DNA of 64,000 nucleotides from the NCBI GenBank assembly GCA_002189035.1, contig NEEC01000027.1:496001-560000 (forward strand). Direction: 5' to 3'. The position numbers and the translations under genes are program-made. Source of the DNA: Utricularia gibba. Taxonomy: Eukaryota; Streptophyta; Magnoliopsida; Lamiales; Lentibulariaceae. Below the pieces are notes generated by a model. It saw only the letters and a list, made by a program, of their open reading frames with translations, searched no databases and was not told where the DNA came from. Shown one piece after another: positions 6,772-49,819 of this stretch (positions are counted from its first letter, which is position 1; every line of letters starts with the position of its first letter).

Positions 6772-9700
6772 ATGAAATCGCCGCTCCAGAAACTCAAGAA
6801 ATTGGGGCTGCACAAGAGCGAGCCTGAGGAGAACTTGCCTCAGTTTGTTTCTTCCCACATGGATGAATTAAATCAAGCCGCCAAGGTGTGTTCATTTCTT
6901 TTTCCGCAGCTTCTTGGCTTGTTCGTAAATCTGTGATGCAATCGTGCTCCTAGGTTAAATTCAGTTGCCACAATTGTACGCCCGCTAGCTTCAAATTCAA
7001 TGTCGATGCATATTCCATCTATCTTTATGCTGCTTTCCAGAGGGGAAAGTCGCAGTGGGACTTTTTTTGTGTCGTGTTTCTGTGTGGTGCTGTTAAATCC
7101 AATCCTCGACTTATGTGTTGGTGTACGTGGAGTAGAATGAAATGAAAGAATCTCATGGAGCTTGCCTGCCTGATCTGAAACGTTATCTTCAGACGTTGAA
7201 ATGCTTGATTTCAGAAGTGTTCTTGGTTTATCTTTTATTGATATGAATCAGTCTTGGTAGAGCTGGTCATTGTGCCCTGAAAGTGCATACGTGTTGCTCT
7301 CTCCATTATTTAGCCATCTTTAATCAAGGTAGCTACTTGACTCTGGAAATTTTTGCTTTCAGGATGTAGAAGACATGAAAGCATCCTACGATGCGCTGTT
7401 TTCTTCAGCTGCTGCAACAATAAACAGTGCTTACGGTACTGATTTGTTTTTTTTAGTTTCTAAAAAAAAACTACCTTACTGAAGTGGTAGGACGCCGCCT
7501 AGTTGGCTAGATACAAGAATCTAGTTAAAGATTTGCATGTTGCATGTAACTAGTCAAATATTTTTCGTTTTGGATTACTTTCTGAAAGTCCAAACATTTG
7601 TTTTGCCCTCAGTATAGTTATATCATATAAATGCTATGCCTCTCTATTCAGAGTTTTCGGAATCATTGCAAGAGATGGGAAATTCTCTACTGGATGAAAG
7701 TGCGTTGCATGATGATGAGGAGACTGGTTAGAAAACTATTTAATGCAGTCTATCTATGCATTGTTGGGTTTTCGAAATCTGAATGAGTTTAAATTTTCTT
7801 TATTTTCGCTATGTTATGCGAAATCTTTATTTGGTGGTTTTTTGTAATCAACCAAGTTTCGAGTCTATGTCTACTAACTTGGGAATAACCTGAATTCTAC
7901 TTAAACGTTCAGAAATTCTAGGCTTGTTAACAACATGTATGACCTTGCAGGAAAAGCATTATCACAGCTGGGAAGAGTGCAGCATGATCTTCAAAAACTT
8001 TTTGATGGCTACGTTAGTATTCACTATCATTCCAAATTAAGTAATGCATGATGTTGGACCATCACATAATTTCATGCTTCGCAGAGGTCCCAAATTATCT
8101 CAACAGTATCAAATCCATCAGAGTCTTTCTTAACGGAGCTACGTAAAGTGGAGGTTGAAACACCACTAAAATACATATAAACTTCTGCATTTTCATGGAT
8201 TATGACGTGATTTTTTCTGTCTTAGGAAATGAAATTGCAATGTGATGAGAAGAGGTATAGCTTCTCTTTGATAACTATTTTTTGGTATTCCCAGAAGTTG
8301 CATTTGTGAAATAATGTTCAATCGAAACCCAGGGAATTGTTTGAACACATTGTGGGACAACTCAAAGAAAAAGGTAAAACCCGGCATGGTAAACTCACGG
8401 CACATACCTCGAATCAATTGAAGGCAGTTCATGAAGAATATGATGAGACAGCAAGGTTGTGCATTTTTCGTATACAGTCATTGAAGAAAGGGCAGTGTCG
8501 AAGCCTACTGACACTGGCAGCTCACCATCATGCTGCACAGGTTCACTGAATGTTCACAATTCATGCCCGTCTGCCTGATTTTAGATTGCAATTAACTCCT
8601 TCTTCTGAAAGCAGCTAAACTTATTCCGAAAAGGCCTCCACTCCCTTGAAGCATTAGACACACATATTAGAAGTGTTGCAGAAAGGCAGCGAATTGATTA
8701 TCAGCTGTCTACAGAGGAATGTGATGACGGAAGATACAGTGTAGAGGTTCATGGGGATGGGGACCTGAGTTTTAAATATAACCTAAACGAGGCAGAAGAA
8801 GAGGTGAGTGCCACATCAACCTTGAGAATCACCATTATTCTTATTAGAAGTTACAGAGGGAATTTTTTGGAGCCTTTATTAAGCTATTTTATATTTGGAT
8901 TACTAGATGGTTGTTTTCCATCCACAGGTATCTTGTTATCTGAAGTCCTAAGTATTTCTGTTTCTGTTTCATGCTCACAGATGTCTAGGACGAGAAATGA
9001 AGTACAAACAAGTGTAGGAAAATCCCAGGGAGAAGCAATGCTCAGTCAGGGGTACAAAGCTGTTAGTCATTCCGCTCCTCTATATTCAGAGATGCGACCA
9101 TCCGCACAAAAATCAAATACGCATGTGCTGCCCACTCCTGATGATGCCAAGGGATCATCAGTCAGTCCTGTTTCTGTGTCAACTACCATGTTGCCTCGAG
9201 GAGGAAGCTCCAAAAATCTATGGCATTCATCACCGCTGGATGTTGATGCGCAAAAGAAAGCTGCCAATGAGCCATTGCCTTCTTTCAACATTCCAAAACC
9301 ACATTTATCAGCTGAGGAGAACAGCAGCAACAAACATATGCTCCCCTTGCCCCCTCGACTGACAGAAGCAGACTCACAAGTGGTGTCTGATGGCCATAAA
9401 TTTAAAAGGCAAGCTTTCTCTGGCCCCTTGGCAAGCAAGCCCTTGGCCAACAAGCCACATGTACCAGGGAGTGGCCCTATTAGCTCTAATGAGATCTATG
9501 GCTCTGTTAGTCGTGCATCTGGTCCTCAGCCGCTGTTATCTGCAAGTATGCTTCACAGTGCTCCCCCTATTGCACCTTCACCTAAAGTGAGCGAGCTTCA
9601 TGAGCTTCCAAGGCCCCCTTCAGATACTACTACTGCATTCAACGCCAAGCCAGTGCGCGGGCACAGGCATTCTGCTCCCTTGGTCAATAGGGAGCGAGAA

Positions 9701-10024
9701 ATATCGCCCCCAAGTAGAAGTATGTTATCATCAAACGAAGGGTCTCCGCTCCCACTCCCTCATCTCACCGTTTCACGGAGCTTCTCCATCCCGTCTTCCA
9801 GTAATAGAATTATGTTTCATTCTGGCAAGCTATTTTCTTCACAAGCAACTCAACTGAGACACGGGGGTTCTTCACCCCTCTCTCCCCTGCAGAGCGGTAC
9901 AAGGTATTTATCAGCCTTTGGTCTTTTTTTTTTTTTTTTTTGTAGCAAGTGCTTGTTGTGTGGTGGAGTTGGTTGGGTTGGCATGACCGGGACGACGATG
10001 CAGGTGACAGCTGCTATAGAATAA
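6772..10024 (+). CDS. BAR-domain protein, At2g33490-like
   Basis: Ten coding exons are proposed: 6772-6885, 7363-7435, 7652-7726, 7951-8012, 8085-8153, 8226-8254, 8333-8540, 8615-8803, 8981-9903, and about 9945-10024. The protein is about 607 residues. The first ~270 residues form the coiled-coil BAR module that senses or bends membranes. Recognisable pieces are MKSPLQKLKKLGLHKSEPE, SAAAATINSAYEFSESLQEM, CRSLLTLAAHHHAAQ and LFRKGLHSLEAL. The second half is Ser/Pro-rich and disordered, with repeated SAPL motifs (HSAPLYSE, RHSAPLVN), as in this family of hydroxyproline-rich-annotated proteins. A role in membrane trafficking is inferred from the BAR fold. An upstream in-frame ATG at 6616 exists, but family homology begins at 6772. 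The last exon follows a long T-run and its C-terminus is uncertain. Confidence 0.85.
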
Positions 10025-38208: not shown

Positions 38209-41200
38209 TCAAAGTGCAGGTCCAGCTGCCAGAATTTTATCGGTGAGAGAGCCATCTTTCCCAATTTTGTGGGTTGCAAACACTTCGAAGTTGCTCTTGA
38301 AAAGGCCACCAAGTTTGAGCAGCGTCTCCTTGTATGCGTTCTTATTAGCCCACTGCGCAGCCATGGGCACATCACGACAGGTCCACAGTGGGTATAGAAT
38401 AGAATCTAATGGCATAGTAATAATCGCGTACCGTGTTGATGGGATCCAGGATCTCTGAAGGCACACCATCCACTTCAGTTGGAATCTCCAAACCAAAAAC
38501 TTCAGTTTTCTGGTATGCAGCATTCAACAAGCTACCTGAATGTATGGCATCTATAATCTTTCTGGTGTAAGCTAATTTGATGCGACTGCCAGAACCATAG
38601 CTGCATAGAAGGGTGGGTATTGTCGTAAAGTCAAGCCTCATCAAAATCCTGATAAATTCAAACATATTCTTACCTTCCTCCTGACCAGCCAGTGTTGACA
38701 AGCCACCCTGTGGCACCATGCTTTTCCATCTTTTCAGCTAGCATAGCCGCATACTTGGTAGGATGCATCATTATGAAGGCTGCACCAAAGCAAGCTGAGA
38801 ATGTTGCTGTTGGCTCCTTAATTCCATCTTCGGTCCCAGCAACCTGGAAAGAAAGAGAATGATTTCGGTCATAAAAGCAGAACTAAGTATTGGCATTGAT
38901 ATCCTATAAAATGGTAAAAATCCATACCAGGGCAGTATACCCACTGATAAAATGGTACATTGTCTGCGCCAGATTCAGCTTGCTTACTGGTGGAAGAACG
39001 CCAAACGCATCACAGGCCAAGAGGATGACATTCTTGGGATGGGGAGCAACACATGGAATTTTAGCATTGGGGATATATTCAATGGGATATGCCGCCCTAG
39101 TATTCTCTGCATTGAGAGTTTCAAATAACAACATATTATCAAATGGGCAAAGTATTACTCTCAGTCATTATAGAAATGGCATATCGCTTAGAAACATGTA
39201 TCACCTGTGACGGACTTGTCAGAGTAATCCACTTCCCGGGTATGCTCTTCAAACACAATATTCTCCAACACTGTGAATTACGGACAGGAAATCACACTAA
39301 GTTGCCCTACAAGGAAAAAAAAAAACAAAGTGTTCAATTTTGCTGGTACCTGTCCCAAATTTTATGGCATTCCAGATATCAGGCTCCTTTTCCCTAGAGA
39401 GATCAATACACTTCGCATAGCAGCCTCCTTCGATGTTTGACACTCCATTATCTCCCCAGCAATGTTCATCATCTCCAATAAGGTAACGATTGTGATCAGT
39501 AGACAGAGTTGTCTTTCCAGTCCCTATGATTCCCAAACAAAGAAAAACCCACCAGTTAGAAAGCAGCATCTACTTTTAAAAGCAGCAGTCACCATTCTAA
39601 ACATAAAACAACATAATCCTAAGGCTAGGGGTAGGATGCACAAGCATCATTCTGTGCGGGATATAGACCGTCATCGGGTAAACACCCGATGAACTTACCT
39701 GACAAACCAAAAAAGAGAGCAACATCTCCATCTTTGCCCATATTGCATCCAGAATGTAAGGATAAGATTTGACGCTTAGGCATGAGATAATGCATAACAC
39801 TGAATAGGCCTTTCTTCATCTCCCCGGCGTATTGAGTGCCGAGGATGACCATTTCTCTTCTAGCAAGGTTAAGATCTATGCTAGTGGATGATGTCATAGA
39901 GTGTGTGTAACGATTACATGGGAACTGTCCAGCATTGTATATAGTGAAGTCCGGAGTACCAAAGTTCTCCAGCTCCTCAGGTGTAGGACGAATACACCTG
40001 TCACCCACCCAGTTATCCACACGTACAAAGACTATACCATTTTACTAGGGAGGTTTTCTAAAGTTCCAACTCTCAATCAAACCATTTTCCCAGGAGTATC
40101 ATCAAAGGGACGTATTAGAAAAACTTATCTGGTAGGACCAGGCACATAGAACTGCAAACGAGGTTAATAAACAAGCACTCCATCACTCACATGTTATGCA
40201 TGAACAAGGAATGGTATGCCCTGGCGGAGACTATCCTGACTTTGATACGATTCTCTGGGTCCCAATTGAGGAACTGGTCATTGACAAAGACCTGAAAGCT
40301 TAGGCCAATCAGAGAAAGCCTTTTTCAATTGAAAGAACGACAAGGAGAAAAAAACAATATGTCATCGTGTTCTGTACAGTATGAATTTCCAGGTAACTTT
40401 CTTATAAGAAACCAGAAAGAAAATAAAAATCCACGGGAAAGAGAATCCAGTATAGCCAGTCAGCAAAGTACACATCCATCAACATCTCGGAAACAGGGTT
40501 ATACTCATTTCATAAAAAACCATCAAATCTACCTTTTCCAGCGAATTCAAATAATCCACAGCTCTTTCCCTGTTAACCAAAAAGGTGTGCTCATCCATTT
40601 CGATGTTCGGTGAGCCCCTGTGCATGGTTTTGAAAGAACAAACACGCAGAAACGAATTACCGGGAAGCTGTTAAACAAGTCAAGAAAGCAGAGAAATGAA
40701 AATTCTCACGCACCTTCCCCACCAAAGATCATCTTCTGTTGTCTCATCCCTTACAACGCGTTTGTCTTTTGGAGACCGGCCAGTCTTCGCCCCTGAAAGG
40801 GTCGCTAATGCACCAGTGGATGTAATAAATGACCCCTTTTCGTACATTATGGCCTGCTCATATAATTCTGCATCGATCATGCAGCAATGAGTAGTTTCAC
40901 ATACTATACCAACAATCGAGCAATCAAAGGTTAAGCATACAAGCCTGACAATAAAAAACGGCGACAAGAAATTACCTGCAGGCGAGAGGTTATAGAGGAT
41001 GTGGGTGAATTTCAAAGAGCTGTCGCTGACTTCTATGTTTGGCACAACATGGTGGTGGCCAGCTTTCGGTATCCGGGGAGTCTCAGCCCTCGCAGGGTCA
41101 CCTCTCACCAACCTCGGACCAGTTTCTCTTGTCAACGATGCCAACGATGCACTGGCGGGAAAGAAACACAAATACGCAAACACACAGTTCAGGAAGTGAA

Positions 41201-41608
41201 GAGAAAAAGCAACCCGGCATCAGCATCACATTTATTGCCAGTAACATGTTTACAAATGACCGAGCGTATAGGAGGATCAATGATGGGTGGATCGGGTCAA
41301 CAAGCGAAAGACCCACGGGAGATCCGGCTAGTACCGAATCAAAGGCGAGCAGATCGAATCCGTAACCGAGTTTACCTGATGGACTGAAGCTGCTTCCGGT
41401 TACGCTCCTCCTCCGCAGCCGCCGCAAAGGTGCCGAACGCACCGTCAAGGGGAGTCGTAGGCGCGGATTTCTTCTTCTGCAGAGAATGGAGTTCGTCGAT
41501 GGTGTGAGCCCTGACCGGCGGCGTGCTGTCATCATAGCATATCCCCTCGGCCTTCTTGTCCGTCTGGATTCTGGGCAGACCGTTGCGCCCGCTCCCGCTC
41601 GACGCCAT
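38209..41608 (-). CDS. PCK: Phosphoenolpyruvate carboxykinase (ATP)
   Basis: Twelve coding exons (41608-41376, 41151-40976, 40867-40714, 40617-40533, 40291-40191, 39997-39699, 39523-39350, 39270-39205, 39106-38928, 38843-38674, 38600-38432, 38352-38209) join in phase to 649 residues. The enzyme converts oxaloacetate and ATP to PEP, CO2 and ADP in the cytosol, feeding gluconeogenesis from lipid and organic acids. The P-loop [11 protein letters not shown] is present. It is followed by the metal/substrate region [20 protein letters not shown] and by [20 protein letters not shown]. The N-terminal ~110 residues form the plant-specific, phosphorylatable extension. TATAAAG lies 160 bp upstream. All motifs and frames are intact. 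Confidence 0.97.
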
Positions 41609-42903: not shown

Positions 42904-45541
42904 TCAATCAGCTCCTATATCTGTTGTGTTCCAAATGCATATCTCAAGATCCAGACTTCCTGAAAAGTCCAAGAAGCCGAAGGGGATGAGCAGGAAGTCG
43001 ACGAGGGGCGGGCCTTCCACCCTCCCGGGGAAGTTGTTCGTGTACGACTTCAGTCTCAGGCAGCTGTTCCCTCGTTCTGATACGATGTCGTACAGGTACT
43101 GCTCCTTTGAGGAACCAGGGCTCACGCAGGTTATGAATACGACATGCCCCACGGCCTCGGTTCCTTTGCTCAGGAGGAAGAGCATCCCATCCTTCTCGGC
43201 TTGTAGGGTGGAAAAAGTTTCATTCTTGGCTATGCTCACGGGGAAGGGGCAGTTGTACTGAAAACGCCTGCCGGAGTCCCAATGCTTGCTGCTGAAATGC
43301 TCCGACAGCTGGTCGGATGAGCCAATGAAATGGCACTTGCTGATGGGGCAACTGCAGGGTGAAAAGGAGCAGACACCCTCGTGCTCCTTTCTCCTGGACT
43401 GGTCTCCAATGTCTGTGCATCCGTACTGTGCATTTCGACAGGGTATTGGATCAGAAATGTCGAAACCCATACTGACTCCGATGCCCTCATTGCCAATGAT
43501 GGACATGTTTCCCTGAATATGAAAAAGTTTCCCCATTGATTAACATCATCAAAGTATTGTAAGCCCATGAGAGGAGGAGAATCATCGGTTACCTCTGCCG
43601 TGAGCATGTCATCCCCATTAACTTGGCCCTGCGCTGCCTCCTGAAAAATAAGCTGAGCTGAAGTGCTTGCTAATCATGGATTCAATCACAATAAGAGTGG
43701 TTGAAATGAAGAAATCAAGGCGATCCCGATAAAATATAGTTCAATTACTAAGCCCCCCTTCCACCATTTCAACATCAAGAATTCCTGAAAGCATAAAAAG
43801 TAGCTGTCTTTCACTTAAAATCTGAACACGCCTAGACCCCTTGTGTAGAAGCTACTTTGGACGAAATAAAATGCAGACAGCCAGCAAAATGAAACACATT
43901 GAGAACACAAGGGTACCTGCTCAATAAGAGCATAGCTATCAAAATCTGATGGTATTACTGGCATTGCAAAGCTCCCTGCCAGGGCTCTACAGCTCAGCAT
44001 TCCCAACCCAAGGCCTCTTTCCTTACAAACCACCTGCAGAGAAAGAAGTGAAGAAATCATCCTCAGACACGATGACACGGGCAAGCACCATGCATGTAAC
44101 ATACCTCTCCACATCCATAACCTCCAAGTTCTCTCTCTTTCTTTTCTCGCTCACTGATCTCTTCCTCGCCCCATGAAGCCAGGCATGGAAAGACAGCCGG
44201 GGAAAGTTCAGATGGTTCTCCAACAGCAATACTCTCATAGTAAAAAAGCTGAAAAAAGTTCGGAAGTTGAAACAACAACAAGTTGTCAAAACACGGGAGT
44301 AACAAAAATGGCTAACCTGTAGAAACAAGAGACAACCACCAACAGCATGTTGCTTACCCTGGCGGTACCGTGCTACCTCTCGTACTAATCGGTCAAGTAA
44401 GAATTTGGCCCAATTATAATGATGGACAGTATCCATATTTGTCAGGAAATGAAGAAATGATGGACTAACATCAAGCCTTGCTGTAGGGCACAAGAGAGTG
44501 CCTAGCACATACAAAAGAAAAGATCTTCTAAAGTCCTCTCCTGATTCTGGAGCTGCCAATCTTTCCTCAAGGAGACGGACAGAAATTCCATGATTTGTAG
44601 CATTGTACTTCTTACGCAGTTCAGAAATTAATTCATCAGGTCCAGAATTAACAACATCCTTTCCACTAGATGCCAAGCCCATGACTAGCTCAACATCCCG
44701 AGGAGTTAGAGGTATACGCTCACCACATATCTCCAAGGTGCGCCTAACAGTGTTAAATTTGTCCAACAACCAAAGACACAAACTTCGTCGTAGTGTTCGA
44801 CATCTGAGACTAAGGATACTACCAAATCCCATGCTCTTTACAGCAGTTTTCTGGTCAGGAGTGAGGCGTTGTAACAGATTTAATAATCGACCAGGAGAGC
44901 ACCTAGTTACAAGTTTGGTCTGCACAATATGCATCATAAGTTCAAGACTCATCAGACACTCAACACATTAGATGATGAAAAGTAGCTAACACCTACCTGT
45001 CTTCTTGGCTTGGGATTCGTAGGTGTGCTGCTCAAATATCTGTCCCATACTTCACGCGCTCGATTAGTGTACTTTGCTTTCTCTTCAGGAGTCATCAGCT
45101 TCCAAGCATCTGAAGCAGCTTTTGTTGCCTGAAACAGCCATTGAGGAAAATTATGAAATTTTGTGTTTCAGAAAATGAAAGTTAACTAGGGCTTTAAGTA
45201 AATGGGATTCCATACAGCTTTCAGCCCTGAAGACTCTGGATGGGTGGCAGTATACTCCTTGATAAATTCCCGGCTACAAGAATACGCAAAATAATTAACA
45301 CAGAGATATCAAAAGAGGCCATATTTAAGTTGATGAAGTACCTAAAATGCACCCAAGAGCATGCCGGACGTGATACTCCTCCATCTTGCTTCTTCTTCCT
45401 CCTCCGTTTCTGACTGCCTTCACACTCCGCTCCCTCTGGCCCATTTCTTGTTGCCATCATCATATCCTCTTCTTCTTCTGCCATGGATAATACAGGACCA
45501 TTTAACTTGCATTCCAACAGAGTCAAATCAATTTCCGGCAT
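42904..45541 (-). CDS. HMG-box / transposon-derived / SIAH-TRAF fusion protein
   Basis: Eight exons (45541-45342, 45273-45216, 45128-44997, 44919-44317, 44248-44105, 44033-43917, 43640-43593, 43512-42904) join in phase to 636 residues. Residues ~45-125 form an HMG-like box (SRPACSWVHF, then KAASDAWKLMTPEEKAKYTN and REVWDRYL) after a Lys/Arg-rich stretch. Residues ~131-330 resemble the helical domain found in plant Ulp1/transposon-derived proteins (LRCRTLRRSLCLWLLDKFN, then ICGERIPLTPRDVELVMGL). Exon 8 encodes a SIAH-type zinc finger (PCRNAQYGC, HEGVCSFSPCSCPISKCHF, HFSSKH) and a TRAF-like fold ending LDLEICIWN. It has no RING, so it is not itself an E3 of normal type. The complete SINA-like gene just upstream is the likely source. 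Alternative: two adjacent genes, if the transcript ends after exon 6. Exon joins are inferred from GT/AG and phase only. Confidence 0.65.
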
Positions 45542-46342: not shown

Positions 46343-47683
46343 TCATGACCATATGGTTAGCTCCCATACAGGTTCTTGATTCATAAATGTATCAGGGACA
46401 AAAAGACATTTCCCTGGCCGGTGATGCTCAGTCCACTGTGGTGTGTTCTCCATCACACCACATAGGCTAATACTACAACCATCTTCTGTATCCTTAGCAG
46501 CAAGTGCATAATTGAATGCTTCATCTGAAGCGGTAGGAGCGATGCAGGCTACATAGGCATACATCCCGTTCCTTTCAAGATGACGATTTAGAATGAAAAC
46601 AATGCCTTCATCCTCCTCTACAAAAACAACATGATTCCTACCATGATCCAGTGAAAAGTCTAGGGTGTCATCAAGGTGGATTTTCTTGTAAGATGATGGA
46701 TGCGTAGCTTCAAGATGGGAATACAAGTCCTTGTAGAAGCCAGAATGATAACATCTAGGAAAAGGGCATGAGCAAGGCGCATATTTGCATGCCTTCTCAT
46801 GATTGGATTTCTTACTGTACTTGAAGGTTTCCACACATCCATGTACCATGTTTGGACATTGGACCATAACTGATTCAATAATCTTTTCAAGAGCCCTGCA
46901 GCGGTTGTATCCGATTGGTAAACAGCAGCTTCCACATTTATTCATCATTCCCTTGCAACACAACTCGCACGCTATATGACCATTGTCGCACTGCACAAGA
47001 TCAAAAAAAAACTGCATTTTGTTAAGCACATCCAACTGATTAATAGAAATACAGAGAATCAACACCCTTGTTTTGAAACTGCACTTTCACTGGCAGAAGA
47101 TCGTGAACCCTTAAACATGAGTTTACATTGACGTAGTTTAATCAAATTCCATGATCCTTGATGGGGGACTAAGGAAAAAATGTGGCTGTTCTGAATAAAT
47201 GGAACATGAACCCGGGTGTGTGAAATTGATCAAGAAAAAGAAAACCACCTGATATACAGGCGATTTGAGAGGTTCGACACAAATAGGGCATTCCAGTGCA
47301 TCTGGTTCAAGGGTGACGACGATCCTTGCGTCTGAAGTTCTATGAGGCTTCCCCAACTTCGAAACCCCACGGCCACCGATATCAGGCGTTGAAATCTGCT
47401 GCGGTCCAGGGGTTAACGCCACGGCCCTCAATTCAACTTCTCTACCGCTTTCTTCATCTGGAGGAAGGGGAGAAGTAGGCCCGTATTCGTGCTCGCCATC
47501 CGACTCCAATTCTTCCTCAATTCGCAACGCTCCACCCAACTGAGGCTGGGAAGTGGAATCCGAAGACGAGGAGGCGTCATAGTGGGCAGAGAGCCGAATT
47601 TTTTTCCACGACGAGCTCTGGCTGCTAAATCTCCGGATCCGGCGATTCCCATCTCCGTTTCCACCTACAGAAAACCTTGCCAT
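46343..47683 (-). CDS. SINA-like RING E3 ubiquitin ligase
   Basis: Two exons (47683-47249 and 46990-46343) encode 360 residues. A disordered acidic/Ser-rich N-terminus of ~125 residues precedes a RING domain split by the intron: ECPICVEPLKSPVYQ, then CDNGHIACELCCKGM and CGSCCLPI. A SIAH zinc finger follows (CPNMVHGC, NHEKACKYAPCSCPFPRC, HLEATHP). A TRAF-like substrate-binding domain ends with PVWELTIWS. This is the architecture of Arabidopsis SINAL proteins, which ubiquitinate bound targets. An in-frame ATG 45 bases upstream also exists; MARFSVGG was chosen as the more natural start. The next gene downstream carries a RING-less copy of the SIAH/TRAF part, indicating local duplication. The promoter is shared with CLPP3 (181 bp between start codons). 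Confidence 0.93.
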
Positions 47684-47864: not shown

Positions 47865-49485
47865 ATGGGGTGGAGCGTTATGTCTTTTACAGCGGCCTCA
47901 TCAACACCTCATATGGCCGCCTCCGCCGGTGCTCTTCATCCCCAAGGCTTACCCTTTTCCAGAAAATCTCCAACCTTTCCTCGCCATTGCTTCGGGCTTG
48001 GTTCTTCTGGTTTGCGTGTGGGCGCTGGGTATGGCAAGGATAAATTCAGTGTTAGGGGATTTACAAGCAGCCTGACTAGCAATTGGGATGTTTCAAACTA
48101 TGCGGCTCCTTCATGGCTACCCAGGTTCGAGGAGCTTGATACCACCAACATGCTTCTGCGCCAGAGAATTATCTTCTTGGGTTCCCAGGTTTCATGTCTT
48201 TCAACTCTTTTAATTTCATCCAAAAAAAAAAGCCTTTTCTGGATATTTGATGCCCCCTTTGTGATTATAGTGCCTCTTGTGACCTATTTGAAGGAATTCT
48301 CAAACGTGTGTTAGTTATCCCATCTTTGGCTGTTGATTCAGCCCTATCTGAATGCCAGTGCTAGTAAAGTTTCAATTTTTATTGTTTCCTGCATCATCTA
48401 ATTGACTGAATAGAACGGCGAGAACACCTTCATCATTATGTTCATGGTTTTGCCGGAAAATAAAAAAGCAATCTGAACATACACACTGCGGTTCCATTAT
48501 TAATCAACTTCTTAAGACTTGATTACTGCCATTCGTTTCTTTGAAAAAAAAAGAAGTAGCTTTGAATTTTTTGTCAACAGATAGATGACATGACAGCAGA
48601 TTTTGTCATCAGTCAGCTATTGTTGCTCGATTCAGAAGACCCGAAAAAGGATATCAGATTGCTTATCAATTCTCCTGGTGGTTCTGTAACTGCAGGTTAA
48701 TCCTGTTACTTGACATAATATTCTAATTTGATGTCTGTATCCATTCCTTTTCCTTGATGTGTAGGAATGGGTATATATGATGCTATGAAATTGTGCAAGG
48801 CAGATGTGTCTACCATTTGTATGGGTCTTGCTGCTTCCATGGGGGCATTCTTGCTTGCATCAGGTAGTAAAGGAAAAAGGTTCTGCATGCCAAATTCTAG
48901 GGTGATGATCCATCAACCCCTTGGAACAGCAGGTGGAAAAGTAAGTGTTTCATGAGTTTTTGCACTATTGTTTTGAGGTGTAAACAAGGTTCACCTTTAC
49001 TCAACTCATTCACATGCTTATTGCCTTGTTGAGTTGCGAGAGTGTTTCAGAGATCTGCTCTAAATTGCTACTCTTGTTTCAGGCAACCGAGATGAGCATT
49101 CGCATCCGAGAAATGGCTTATCACAAAGTAAAGCTTAACAAGATACTATCAAGAATCACTGGGAAGCCTGAGGAGCAGGTTTGGCTGGCTATCCATCCAT
49201 ATTAACACACTGTAAATCTGGTTTTCTTTCTGGAAGTGGGCTTGATGCATATTCTACATGCAGCTTGAATTGGACACCGATAGAGATAACTTCATGAATG
49301 CGTGGGAGGCAAAGGAGTATGGATTGGTGGATGCAGTGATTGATGATGGGAAGCCTGGACTGGTTGCTCCTGTGGTGGATGCGTCTCCTCCTCCTAAAAC
49401 CCGGGTTTGGGATCTCTGGAAAGTGGAGGGAAGCAAAAAAGCCAAGAAGAATCTACCATCTGAAGAACGACTTTTGCAAATATAA
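47865..49485 (+). CDS. CLPP3: Plastid Clp protease subunit ClpP3
   Basis: Five exons (47865-48188, 48581-48695, 48765-48940, 49083-49178, 49264-49485) encode 310 residues. The first ~85 residues, rich in Ser/Ala and basic residues, look like a chloroplast transit peptide. The ClpP fold starts at [20 protein letters not shown]. The active-site serine is S171 in [14 protein letters not shown] and the histidine is H196 in [11 protein letters not shown] of [10 protein letters not shown] forms part of the oxyanion region. The C-terminal extension [18 protein letters not shown] is characteristic of ClpP3 rather than ClpP4-6. It is a subunit of the P-ring of the stromal ClpPR core. The start could also be the ATG at 47880. 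Confidence 0.93.
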
Positions 49486-49610: not shown

Positions 49611-49682
49611 GCCCCTATAGCTCAGTGGTAGAGCGTCAGTCTTGTAAACTGAAGGTCTGTAGTTCGATCCTGCATGGGGGCA
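49611..49682 (+). tRNA. tRNA-Thr (anticodon UGU), copy 1
   Basis: This 72-bp gene has a seven-pair acceptor stem (GCCCCTA with TGGGGGC plus discriminator A). The D-arm/box A is TAGCTCAGTGGTAGAGC, the anticodon loop is CTTGTAAA with UGU, and the box B T-loop is GTTCGATCC. There is no intron and no encoded CCA. A CAA element lies just upstream (AGCAAACA). No run of four T follows before the second copy. Confidence 0.95.
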
Positions 49683-49747: not shown

Positions 49748-49819
49748 GCCCCTATAGCTCAGTGGTAGAGCGTCAGTCTTGTAAACTGAAGGTCTGTAGT
49801 TCGATCCTGCATGGGGGCA
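49748..49819 (+). tRNA. tRNA-Thr (anticodon UGU), copy 2
   Basis: Identical over all 72 bp to copy 1, 65 bp away on the same strand. The flanks of the two copies differ, so only the tRNA itself matches. It is followed by a TTTTT terminator at about 49828. Confidence 0.95.

Follow-up and report, generated by a model that had tools for sequence, protein, structure and literature searches.

The 64-kb window analysed here (a stretch of 64,000 nucleotides from Utricularia gibba contig NEEC01000027.1) contains at 42904..45541, on the minus strand, one real gene whose 636-residue product joins an HMG box, a plant mobile domain (PMD) and a SINA-type zinc-finger and TRAF-like module devoid of a RING. 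Judged by the sequences of its relatives, this HMG-PMD-SINA order is not peculiar to the one gene, nor does it result from a joining error. Eight exons with GT/AG borders and matching phases make up the gene (Table 1), and its introns sum to 727 nt. Re-examination of the initial annotation recovered all of these exons, borders and phases as well as the product length, and the two junctions it had singled out, 43917-43640 and 43593-43512, are exact in the sequence. The true first methionine is uncertain, several relatives beginning nearer residue 20. Searches of the plant's own genome (an assembly of 100.09 Mb in 516 contigs) found a single copy of the gene; beyond it they matched the neighbouring SINA-like gene and another gene of that type, six exons for SINA zinc fingers and, at 28% identity, one distant exon for a PMD.

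An HMG-like box, a transposon-related helical domain and a RING-less SIAH/SINA zinc finger with a TRAF-like fold had been proposed for the product, and all are borne out, three of them by Pfam matches above the curated cut-offs: HMG_box at residues 57-122 (39.1 bits, cut-off 25.4), PMD at residues 202-362 (46.9 bits, cut-off 34.9) and Sina_ZnF at residues 457-511 (44.9 bits, cut-off 32). The HMG box has relatives of solved structure, such as that of BBX (1wz6, E 3e-05), and in a structure model of the Salvia relative P0001 the corresponding part forms three helices with a predicted local distance difference test score (pLDDT) of about 72-84; the mean pLDDT of this full-length model is 46.9, and its HMG part alone was used. 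The SINA module, encoded by exon 8, consists of the zinc-finger and TRAF-like substrate-binding domain. A Pfam search of the 636 residues returned no RING match, and RING was likewise absent among the families matched by 43 relatives chosen for direct scanning. The protein is therefore not classed as an E3 ligase.

The same order recurs in whole-length proteins of related genomes. A protein search with the product gave 167 matches, of which the best 120 were listed (102 named rows and 18 rows from short contigs). By hand count, 94 of these 120 relatives carry all three domain tags (HMG, PMD and Sina_ZnF); the Sina_ZnF tag is missing in 25 and the PMD tag in one more. Direct scanning found HMG_box and PMD in 43/43 of the chosen relatives and Sina_ZnF in 37/43. 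The 16 best relatives are 74-79% identical to the product over 96-97% of its length, a degree of homology that excludes a chance occurrence of the domain order; those with an organism shown all belong, we presume, to the Lamiales. A fragment from Genlisea aurea reaches 83% identity over 65% of the product, and Solanum, Gossypium, Populus and Malus are also represented. Every listed row with an organism shown comes from what we take to be a eudicot genus (the organism is cut off in the named row P0052). The 120 listed of 167 matches included no fusion protein from monocots, magnoliids, gymnosperms or Brassicaceae, nor did a second search, covering lengths of about 158-502 aa with 63/63 matches listed, reveal such a fusion outside the eudicots. 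The matched sequences thus make restriction of the family to eudicots likely. The initial annotation had known of no described plant protein with this order; that the order is new to the databases is not supported, the eudicot family being already domain-tagged in public records. No paper on the order was found in a literature search that did not cover preprints and most subscription papers. One relative, P0075 (755 aa, on a 2.6 kb contig), has an additional N-terminal stretch tagged GYF (PF02213) ahead of HMG-PMD-SINA. In Asteraceae relatives, for example P0028, P0081 and P0103, the ligand set is missing from SINA zinc finger 1, but finger 2 is kept.

Evidence that the SINA exon belongs to the same transcript comes from the 18 short-contig rows (source labelled lgn), which we take to be read assemblies. 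In 16 of the 18 the longest contig leaves less than 415 nt beyond the reading frame, compared with the 727 nt of introns in the Utricularia gene; the other two, P0055 and P0040, have more spare length and are uninformative on splicing. The alignment columns of HMG-PMD and of TRAF are completely filled in 18/18. The whole protein is thus encoded on contigs that have no room for the introns, and the SINA exon is very probably part of spliced transcripts in these relatives, a result that goes against the two-gene arrangement that the initial annotation had named as its refutation. Insertions or deletions lie close to exon junctions 1-5 in 2, 2, 3, 4 and 4 of the 120 aligned relatives, and close to the last two, both of which fall within a variable linker, in 16 and 57.

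The exon-8 module descends from RING-bearing SINA-like genes. Two trees were computed. The first held 53 zinc-finger-plus-TRAF rows, with the fusion rows cut by a pattern requiring DSG that left out two of them; the second, of 55 rows, restored these two. All fusion rows form one clade in both (24/24 in the first and 26/26 in the second, each at 100/100). The sister of this clade is the SINA-like protein P0213 of Persea (avocado), at 91/95, unstarred and with the bootstrap unsettled, in the first tree, and at 100/95, starred, in the second, for which the tool warned that some long branches elsewhere meet. P0213 carries a Sina_RING domain (41.1 bits, cut-off 29.3). A RING-bearing sister to a RING-less clade suggests that a SINA-like gene probably lost its RING on joining HMG-PMD, after the split from the magnoliids, as judged with this one outgroup sequence. 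An HWDSG signature behind zinc finger 2 was counted on all 120 rows: W, D and G are present in 117, 117 and 115 relatives and all five letters in 102, and among 25 SINA-like rows outside the fusion the W is found at this site in P0213 alone.

The pairing of HMG and PMD may be older than the SINA fusion. Two Prunus proteins, P0177 and P0180, each about 410 aa long and lacking SINA, align with the HMG-PMD part at 28-29% identity over 88-91%, with HMG_box_2, PMD and DUF1985 matches that all fall below the curated cut-offs. There are 47 PMD matches in the plant's own genome, and 34 of them have internal stop codons, as would fit transposon copies in decay or read-through introns. DUF1985 gave no match there, and none in the control genomes either, so that this search was uninformative.

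We propose, with a probability of roughly 40%, that the product acts in the nucleus as a SINA adaptor that is tethered to DNA and joined to a PMD. The adaptor would be held on DNA or chromatin by its HMG box; its PMD, of a kind also found in transposons, would link it to PMD-type regulatory complexes; and the RING-less SINA module would bind SINA-type substrates, pair with RING-bearing SINA proteins, or both. Ubiquitin-ligase specificity could thus be brought to chromatin, perhaps by recruitment rather than by shielding; the evidence fits either. In the Arabidopsis work cited here and below from the parts consulted, MAIN and MAIL1 interact with one another and with PP7L, and both silencing and gene expression require them (PMC7156037, PMC5418596), and the chromatin contact of the MAIN/MAIL1/PP7L complex is stated as unknown (PMC9899485). 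The wider proposition, that the eudicot fusion of PMD, HMG box and SINA targeting half is a conserved chromatin adaptor through which SINA ubiquitination is coupled to silencing or gene control that depends on PMDs, we regard as doubtful. Several points weigh against the nuclear SINA adaptor proposed first. PMD partners are on record only for other PMD proteins, and in the part of an apple study consulted MdSINA1/7 form no homodimers, so that pairing is not to be taken for granted. In the alignment the PMD and the HMG box are better conserved than the SINA part, and an incomplete zinc finger 1 is seen in 29 of the 120 relatives, including all 18 rows that we assign to the Asteraceae by genus name; SINA binding may therefore not be the main task of the protein.

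Two other roles account for parts of the same evidence. A decoy, whose RING-less module would compete with RING-bearing SINA proteins and shield nuclear or chromatin proteins from ubiquitination, would agree with the loss of the RING and the retention of the substrate-binding fold, and has a parallel in the RING-less Arabidopsis SINAT6, which binds and protects ATG13 without causing its degradation (PMC10734943); however, no substrate is on record, and the HMG and PMD parts, conserved above the SINA part, would be superfluous for a pure decoy, which leaves this role somewhat unlikely. The analogy of SINAT6 makes both proposals of the initial annotation, a chromatin-tethered adaptor and a dominant-negative SINA partner, plausible. 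Alternatively, HMG-PMD might carry the function, for example by controlling genes or silencing transposons in the manner of MAIN and MAIL1, with SINA a scaffold or dimer piece that has no link to ubiquitin. The incomplete first fingers speak for this, as do the known fusions of PMD with phosphatase, protease or kinase domains (PMC7156037), but zinc finger 2 is complete in 117/120 relatives and the W, D and G of HWDSG are kept in 115-117, and we consider it unlikely. An erroneous join between two genes, the first an HMG-PMD gene that stops behind exon 6 and the second a SINA exon of its own, is exceedingly improbable: over-joining by gene predictors does occur within the family (P0021, P0028, P0019 and P0037 have extra neighbouring domains) and some models end ahead of SINA (for example P0122 and P0126), but the whole protein in the short-contig rows and the few indels at the first five junctions led us to reject this artefact.

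A RING-bearing SINA-like gene (Sina_RING 33.9 bits, cut-off 29.3; Sina_ZnF 46.9 bits, cut-off 32) lies 0.8 kb upstream on the same strand and is the best match to exon 8 in the genome outside the fusion gene itself. Models from Oldenlandia (P0021) and Deinandra (P0028) join a RING-SINA protein ahead of HMG-PMD-SINA. The pair has likely been kept adjacent in distant asterids, as read from these fused models of two other species. Duplication at the locus would be a natural source for the fused exon, though in neither tree is the neighbour sister to it. A copy of exon 8 taken from the present neighbour is not favoured, since the neighbour groups with other SINA-like rows in both trees. The three neighbours (that in the window and those read from the N-termini of P0021 and P0028) make up no clade of their own, and fall within one 12-row group (88/93) in the first tree and one 16-row group (94/93) in the second. 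No match to methionyl-tRNA formyltransferase was found in the 64-kb window, although it occurs in the models of two relatives.

Table 1. Features of the HMG-PMD-SINA gene and its surroundings (positions in the window).
Feature	Position	Strand	Remark
Exon 1	45342..45541	-	N-terminus and HMG box start; donor GTACTTC
Basic run KRRRKKK ahead of HMG box	residues 45-51, 45409-45389	-	NLS (nuclear localisation signal)-like by eye only
Exon 2	45216..45273	-	HMG box, middle
Exon 3	44997..45128	-	HMG box, end
HMG box, residues 57-122	45373 to 45021, introns included	-	Pfam
Exon 4	44317..44919	-	main part of PMD; Pfam match from 44706
Exon 5	44105..44248	-	PMD end; Pfam match stops at 44156
Exon 6	43917..44033	-	start conserved, variable linker after
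Exon 7	43593..43640	-	short exon of linker
Exon 8	42904..43512	-	RING-less SINA module: two zinc fingers and TRAF-like fold
Sina_ZnF within exon 8	43446-43282	-	Pfam
HWDSG signature behind zinc finger 2	residues 511-515, 43270..43284	-	alignment
TRAF-like fold within exon 8	about 43278-42925	-	
Stop codon	42904-42906	-	exon 8
SINA-like gene with RING, upstream neighbour	46343..47683	-	exons 47683-47249 and 46990-46343, 360 aa
ATP-type PEP (phosphoenolpyruvate) carboxykinase pieces	39625-41219	-	downstream flank of pair
Clp protease pieces	48566-48955	+	upstream flank of pair
Two tandem tRNA genes	49611-49682, 49748-49819	+	equal Rfam score
471-residue open frame	8609-10024	+	no Pfam match at E 0.001

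Taken as an object, the HMG-PMD-SINA gene is unremarkable, but it is a direct test case for the contact of PMD proteins with DNA and ubiquitination. The novelty lies in an order for which no paper was found; the domain tags in databases, and PMD fusions as a kind, were already known. With a PMD beside an HMG box and a ubiquitin-targeting module, how PMD proteins meet DNA and ubiquitination becomes testable with one eudicot gene. Were the wider proposition of a coupling adaptor true, the product would be a Rosetta-stone protein, with the prediction that in other plants DNA-binding and SINA proteins meet the PMD complexes in trans. Genes of this kind can escape a survey in which RING plus SINA is the definition of a SINA gene; the main text of an apple SINA survey mentions neither HMG nor PMD, although Malus rows of the family exist.

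Compared with known systems, the gene shows no basic difference from its public-database eudicot relatives, such as Salvia P0001, Olea P0015 and Theobroma P0036, which have the same three domains and match over the whole length; these are labelled uncharacterized, RING-type E3 transferase, phosphatase or MAIN-LIKE, and no functional description of them was found. With plant HMG-box proteins it has in common an HMG box above the Pfam cut-off, and the literature found describes none that is fused to PMD and SINA. Like MAIN, MAIL1 and MAIL3 of Arabidopsis it has a PMD in a host gene, and MAIL3 exemplifies the fusion of a PMD with other domains; the text of that PMD paper does not mention HMG (PMC7156037). 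SINAT6 of Arabidopsis also has a RING-less SINA module and is able to bind without ubiquitinating; it is likened here by description, not by sequence, and no HMG or PMD is mentioned for it in the part consulted (PMC10734943). Exon 8 shares its zinc-finger and TRAF module with RING ligases of the SINA-like 10 type, among which its clade falls with Persea P0213 as sister; these ligases carry a RING, whereas the HMG-PMD-SINA protein has none and has instead an HMG box and a PMD in front.
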